Shown in pieces: positions 42,663 to 43,930 of a stretch of 64,000 bases of DNA. The stretch's first letter is position 1, and each line of letters starts with the position of its first letter. Source of the stretch: Methanosarcinales archaeon Met12 (lineage in GTDB: Archaea; Halobacteriota; UBA148; JAJOKI01); contig CP017966.2 of the NCBI GenBank assembly GCA_002813105.2, positions 620,001 to 684,000 of the forward strand, read 5' to 3'. The position numbers were made by a program, and so were the translations under genes. Under the pieces are notes generated by a model that was not told the DNA's origin, searched no databases, and was given only the letters and a program-made list of their open reading frames with translations.

Positions 42663-42848
42663 ATGGTAAAAATAATTCCTCATAGACACTGCGCAATATG
42701 CGGGAAGTCGGTTGAATCCAATGAAACGTTTTGCTCTGACGAATGTACAAAGAGATATGGTGATGCCCGGAGGAGGCAGAAACTGATGTTCATCCTTCTC
42801 ATCGTGTTGATGTTCGTCATCCTGTTGTTGCCCTGGCTTCCGAGATGA
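42663..42848 (+). CDS. DUF2116 zinc-ribbon membrane protein
   Basis: 61 residues: a treble-clef-like CAICGKSV / CSDECTKRY four-cysteine zinc site, a basic linker, and one C-terminal helix (LMFILLIVLMFVILLLPWLP). Small archaeal proteins of this layout (DUF2116) have unknown function. Its last codons and stop form the target sequence TTCCGAGATGA duplicated by the element that starts at 42849. Confidence 0.85.
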   Translation: MVKIIPHRHCAICGKSVESNETFCSDECTKRYGDARRRQKLMFILLIVLMFVILLLPWLPR

Positions 42849-42936
42849 GCTTTGCACATAAAGTCCTAATTTGGGCCTACTTTTTGTGCAGATGTTAGAG
42901 TTTTTGTGCAAGGGAGTAACATTTAAGGGGGGTATA

Positions 42937-43048
42937 GAGGGGTACCCCTCAATTATAGTATAGTGTAAGTAGGGCTTCACTGGTAGTATATTAGGAAACA
43001 TATAGGAAACTGTATGGGGGGGTACCCCCCATTATAATATAGTGTAAG
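42937..43048 (+). promoter_or_regulatory. Two palindromic operator-like repeats with TATA-like boxes
   Basis: A 14-bp palindrome GAGGGGTACCCCTC (42937-42950) is followed by AATTATAGTATAGTGTAAG. 80 bp on, GGGGGGTACCCCCC (43017-43030) is followed by ATTATAATATAGTGTAAG. The repeated palindrome plus AT-box pairs stand 18 bp before the ATG at 43066 and look like duplicated operator-promoter units of the element gene. Confidence 0.6.
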
Positions 43049-43065
43049 AAGCGGGGGGCAAGGAT

Positions 43066-43862
43066 ATGACAACTAAGTATGATGACATTAGGATTAGAAA
43101 AGTTAGGGTGCTTGGCGATAAATTGAAGGAGGAAGCGCACCAAATAGGTCTTAGTGGAGACGATTTAGTTATTGTGAGGACATATATTAATTCTCTACCC
43201 ACCTATAAAATCGAAAAGATAGAGGGAAGTCCAATTGAGTACTTGCAACGAAAAATAACTTAGTCAGAGCTAAGTGATTATATGTCCGATGCCAAACGAT
43301 CTCTTTTGATTTTATGTCATACTTTTTTTCACAATGCTTTTAGGTCTGGTAAACATAGAAAACCAAGAGGGGCGTTGTCGCAGGTCAAAAAATGGGCACA
43401 GTCTAGATTTATCGCTGATTTCATTATCGAGATGGGGTCCGAACGCTCTGAAGGATATCCTATTTTGTTATTACATCAGAAAAAATATTTAATGAGTTTT
43501 CTGAGCAACTTAAAAGCGAGTATACGAGTCCAGAAACTTATGAGTACTTGGATATATTAAAAACGCTTATTTTTCGTGTTCAGAGTGAATCAGTAAATAA
43601 GTTGGAAGAAAATGAAGGTATTATTGTAATAGCCGATGCAATTTATAACCGTAGCGATTACGAACCTTTAATCATAACTGATATGAAGGACGGCATGATG
43701 AAAACTGCAAAGGAACTCTACAAAAAAAGTACTACACAGGATGATGTTAAAATCCCATTCTCTATACTAAACTTAGAAGAAGCGATTAGTTTCTTGGAGG
43801 GCAGATATTCAGTGCAGTACGGACTGGTTAAGAAAAAAGATTCAGTATATAATATGCTCTAA
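43066..43862 (+). pseudogene. Broken gene of the 42849-43875 element (unrecognised)
   Basis: The frame opened by ATG 43066 runs 65 codons to TAG 43261, continues in the same frame from 43264 to about 43450, and then the plausible coding frame shifts; the third part (through 43548) ends at 43862. Pieces: KYDDIRIRKVRVLGDKLKEE, KKWAQSRFIADFIIEM, and EENEGIIVIADAIYNRSDYE with LIITDMKDGM. The last piece faintly recalls the central and C-terminal acidic motifs of PIN domains; no DDE or HUH transposase motif is visible. One nonsense codon plus one frameshift indicate decay. Confidence 0.6.
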
Positions 43863-43930
43863 ATATGTGCAAAGCTTCCGAGATGAAAAAGTACATATAG
43901 CAGCACAACTATGCCATATTGGGGGGGAGG

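Follow-up and report, generated by a model that had tools for sequence, protein, structure and literature searches.

A probable transposase-less mobile insertion cassette with IS903-type ends in the genome of a Methanosarcinales archaeon

The stretch of DNA analysed here, hereafter the window, spans 64,000 nucleotides (G000:C1:620001-684000) of the single-contig, 1.07-Mb genome of a Methanosarcinales archaeon. Within this window, a small gene (42663-42848, plus strand) encoding a zinc-ribbon-like protein of 61 amino acids with a membrane tail ends with a TGA stop codon at the point where an insertion begins, and this stop codon has been kept intact despite the insertion. In the initial annotation, the insertion was delimited by perfect 12-bp inverted repeats (42849-42860 and 43864-43875), themselves flanked on both sides by an identical run of 11 bp, TTCCGAGATGA. 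With 23 matching bases and some 3e8 position pairs within 5 kb, simple arithmetic gives a chance expectation of about 5e-6 such arrangements per window; chance repeats were rejected as an explanation. An uninterrupted site had been predicted to exist in relatives and is indeed found in a genome of the same genus (G001), where it reads ...GGGATGAAAAAGTACATATA.

While the letters of both repeats are present exactly as described, the borders drawn from them require correction. All related elements compared (20/20) have a purine immediately outside GCTTTGC and a pyrimidine immediately following GCAAAGC. In most other copies, flank identity extends over 9 bp rather than 11; it is complete (9/9) in eight elements, the window element included, and 8/9 in two others, and an 11-bp match recurs in only one of the other seven 9/9 copies, which lies in a tandem array. 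Wherever both ends and the target site duplication (TSD) are identifiable in related elements, the latter is 9 bp long and starts one base outside GCTTTGC/GCAAAGC. From the outer purine/pyrimidine pair and the 9-bp flanks of the relatives, together with the empty site in G001, it follows that the element corresponds to positions 42848-43876 (1029 bp, A-GCTTTGC...GCAAAGC-T). It is bounded by perfect 13-bp terminal inverted repeats (TIRs), i.e., AGCTTTGCACATA at 42848-42860 on the plus strand and its counterpart at 43864-43876 on the minus strand, and by two copies of the 9-bp TSD TCCGAGATG at 42839-42847 and 43877-43885. The two surplus matching bases of the 11-bp reading correspond to the terminal A/T pair and to a coincidental outer match. 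The correction is not trivial, as the size of the TSD decides the family assignment. At L099:111-5041, at least two identical 2460-bp transposon copies follow each other in tandem with the same 11 bp (CTCATGCAGAG) in between, and are then followed by a third left end.

The left 62 bp of the window element (42849-42910, plus strand) harbour three spaced TTTGTGCA-type motifs, located at 42849-42860, 42879-42890 (inverted) and 42899-42910; the right end consists of the 13-bp TIR only and is devoid of subterminal motifs. Copies of the 62-bp left end, 75-82% identical, exist elsewhere in the same genome and in genomes of the same order. At E<=0.01, a sequence model built from seven such ends without recognised transposase (R1) has matches in 8 of the order's 11 genomes, and at E<=0.001 in 30 of the phylum's 392. 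Across the phylum, related ends are encountered as solo ends and as mini-elements of 64-104 bp, several of which display a 9-bp TSD, and in the same-order genome of Methanocellaceae archaeon UBA148 (G004, contig DAHG01000057.1) an end of the 62-bp type adjoins transposase remnants. At transposase-bearing loci, R1 also picks up the right ends, precisely at the border of the element and on the 3' side of the gene (E 2.3e-8 to 6.5e-4). Judged from these matches, the 62-bp unit at the left of the window element corresponds to the right end of autonomous transposons, the one on the transposase side. The host genome contains a second, solo 62-bp end (L003:3524-3586; genome position 523023), which abuts the 3' end of a gene for an NYN-domain protein (PF01936); the idea of a second cassette with nuclease cargo at this place was dropped, as neither a second end nor a TSD was found.

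The end motifs occur in several dialects, namely GCACAAAAAG, GCACATAAAG, GCACCTAAAG, GCACGTAAAG and GCATCTAAAG (at loci L013, L019, L045, L046, L054 and L058), which are largely uniform per element. This uniformity within one element suggests that the motifs may co-evolve with transposase specificity. Among the elements found, none is an intact autonomous element with the exact dialect of the window (GCACATAAAGT/TTTGTGCA), and the relatives nearest in dialect, from UBA148, are either disrupted or indistinct at one end.

Autonomous relatives of the window element comprise the complete transposons L093 (4730 bp), L094 (3043 bp), L099 (2460 bp) and L101 (2478 bp), hosted by Methanothrix and by a Methanosarcinales MAG, which exhibit the same ends, the three-motif end and a 9-bp TSD. 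Each of them encodes a transposase of 399-408 amino acids with a SWIM domain and a domain of the DDE_Tnp_1 family (Pfam domains seen on close relatives). The best NCBIfam model for this transposase is IS5_2, with 131.6 and 130.2 bits for a cut-off of 140, and tblastn leads to elements annotated as IS5-like ISPpa3/ISPam2, the ISPpa3-type transposase showing 28% identity over 286 amino acids (E 7e-17); the DDE assignment is by homology. ISPpa3a and ISPam2 are IS5/IS903 elements with a 9-bp direct repeat (DR) (PMC3281130), and IS903B has the TIR GGCTTTGTTGAATAAATC and a 9-bp DR as well (PMC10569121). The ends of the window element are thus those of a lineage of DDE transposons related to the IS903 group of the IS5 family, and do not support one of the two readings offered by the initial annotation, that of a decayed IS from an undescribed family. 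In the literature, no description of a SWIM transposase family or of a Methanosaeta passenger IS was found, ISfinder being outside that search.

Besides the transposase, these autonomous relatives carry various genes, i.e., (i) an SDH-type serine protease gene in L094, (ii) a MarR-like gene and a 447-aa gene in L093, (iii) a membrane-protein gene in L099, and (iv) two tRNA genes (Leu TAG, Ser GCT) in L101 (933-1140), this complete transposon from Methanothrix having a perfect TSD. Small AbrB-like or RHH genes further lie divergently beside the transposase gene. In UBA148, a transposase gene (L075) stands between a DUF2080 gene and a PIN gene (PF01850), at a locus where the element borders are indistinct. 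As the cargo differs from one autonomous relative to the next, passenger carriage is a habit of the transposon family. The initial annotation had considered that the same ends around unrelated genes would speak against its reading; such an arrangement is what is found here, and it is expected of a transposon family with exchangeable passengers.

The window element itself contains three reading frames, all on the plus strand, namely (i) ORF1 (43066-43263), which encodes 65 amino acids and ends at a TAG, (ii) ORF2 (43282-43560), which is in the frame of ORF1 and whose meaningful part extends to an A6 run (~43478-43484) where the frame shifts, and (iii) ORF3 (43452-43862), an open frame of 136 amino acids that continues ORF2 past the frameshift without an ATG. 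Of the single broken gene initially proposed, both lesions are there, i.e., the TAG at 43261-43263 and the frame change in the A6 run near 43478, but with an ATG further on, at 43282, the TAG may just be the end of a distinct gene of 65 amino acids, and the frame change may reflect either decay or a homopolymer assembly error. The reported lack of a DDE motif holds, as the ORFs give no DDE match. An intact homologue of the 43066-43862 protein, which the initial annotation had hoped for, was sought in 392 genomes of the phylum as well as in genome and viral contigs and none was found, for ORF1 and ORF3 alike; a DNA-level search of a plasmid collection gave no match either, and no homologue of ORF1-3 lies beside any other end of this type. 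Upstream of ORF1, a 34-bp direct repeat, which includes the palindrome GGGGTACCCC and a TATA-like stretch, is present at 42939-42972 and again, 79 bp downstream and with 79% identity, at 43018-43051 (both plus strand); these two palindromic repeats could serve as operators.

The cargo could be viewed as an operon for an AbrB-like antitoxin and a PIN toxin, acting as an addiction module that would stabilise the cassette, a reading prompted by motifs recognised by eye (GLSGDDLVIVR in ORF1, ILCHTFFHNAF and ADAI..LIITDMKD in ORF2/3), by the operator-like character of the duplicated upstream repeat and by the PIN gene that adjoins the SWIM-DDE transposase gene of UBA148. Against it, the cargo ORFs have no match in Pfam, PDB or PADLOC, the comparison of ORF1 with the AbrB-like genes of the family by hhalign is negative, and the AlphaFold single-sequence model of the ORF3 frame is unusable (mean pLDDT of 45). 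As such, an addiction module is regarded as rather doubtful, and the description of the cargo as a small two-gene antitoxin/PIN-toxin operon is a weak guess; the faint PIN resemblance pointed out in the initial annotation is likewise tentative.

Whatever the function of its passenger, the window element is very probably a mobile insertion cassette (MIC), i.e., a non-autonomous derivative of the archaeal SWIM-DDE lineage with IS903-type ends and passenger cargo but without transposase. Its TIRs are common with those of autonomous IS, the TSD is 9 bp in both and no transposase gene is present inside; with the ends of transposase-bearing relatives and no transposase of its own, it supports the initial suggestion of a non-autonomous element carrying cargo. 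Its mobilisation would have occurred by cut-and-paste in trans through an IS903-type DDE transposase, a mechanism well supported by the anatomy of the element. Two observations weigh against this reading, namely the right end devoid of subterminal motifs and the lack, among the elements found, of an intact autonomous partner in the window's own dialect. A transposase encoded elsewhere would have bound the repeated TTTGTGCA-type motifs and cut at the A/T-GCTTTGC ends, and the cassette, with ORF1 and ORF2/3 as an unrelated passenger, would have been inserted by a 9-bp staggered cut beside the stop codon of the small gene. The source of transposase may since have been lost, or may never have resided in this genome, leaving a stranded copy with decaying cargo. 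Searches of the host genome revealed no SWIM-DDE transposase, and the one DDE_Tnp_1 match in it is a degraded remnant belonging to a different transposase type; in the absence of a matching transposase there, the window copy is probably stranded. This DDE_Tnp_1 remnant (G000:C1:151852-152103, L113) overlaps a frame for an AAA-type ATPase on the other strand.

Alternatively, the element could be a decayed autonomous IS, the broken ORFs being the remnant of its own, novel transposase. In its favour, these ORFs occupy most of the element and match no known family, but several complete elements have a DDE transposase between these same ends, the window ORFs give no DDE match and point away from the 62-bp end whereas the transposase genes of the relatives point towards it, and no ORF homologue accompanies any other end; this explanation is very unlikely and is considered largely refuted. 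It is just as improbable that the element stands for a novel family of transposons that move by a mechanism of their own and merely converge on IS903 ends: outer TIR identity with IS903B is confined to RGCTTTG and the transposase falls just below the IS5_2 cut-off, but the TIR start, the 9-bp TSD and the DDE homology with the ISPpa3-type transposase are concordant. A casposon or another large-TSD system was rejected, as it fits neither a 9-bp TSD nor DDE partners.

The window element is then real, well delimited and non-autonomous, and the kind of transposon it represents is already known. Its main value lies in the corrected borders and in the passenger-rich archaeal IS903 lineage standing behind it, so that an unexplained repeat is now placed in a specific archaeal transposon lineage. 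IS903-type elements regularly carrying passengers in methanogens represent a route of gene exchange poorly catalogued in archaea. More tentatively, a phylum-wide archaeal platform can be imagined, in which one SWIM-type IS903-like lineage with co-varying end-motif dialects would move exchangeable cargo both in cis and via transposase-less cassettes, dialect and specificity co-evolving; if true, this cargo would include toxin-antitoxin-like genes, proteases and tRNA genes. The motif dialects would offer a direct test of the co-evolution between transposase and end sequences.

Compared to known systems, the element and its partners share with the IS903 group of the IS5 family (IS903B, ISPam2, ISPpa3) a TIR starting with RGCTTTG (GGCTTTG for the autonomous partners) and a 9-bp TSD, and the DDE catalytic domain of the autonomous partners is homologous to that of the group. 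The partners differ from it by an N-terminal SWIM zinc finger, divergent small genes of the AbrB/RHH/DUF2080 type, passengers, three-motif subterminal ends and a length of 2.5-4.7 kb vs about 1.05 kb. The MITEs of archaea (PMC10969869) are likewise non-autonomous with the same ends, and many short copies (64-104 bp) exist among relatives of the window element, which itself is 1029 bp long with coding cargo. The MICs and transporter ISs already described (PMC3129680) resemble the window element in that IS ends and TSD surround passengers without a transposase, these passengers being unrelated to transposition as those of the window element would be, and in that transposase-bearing relatives also carry passengers. 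While those MICs have IS231-type ends, those of the window element are of the archaeal IS903 type, its passenger is orphan and broken, and its host has no cognate transposase.
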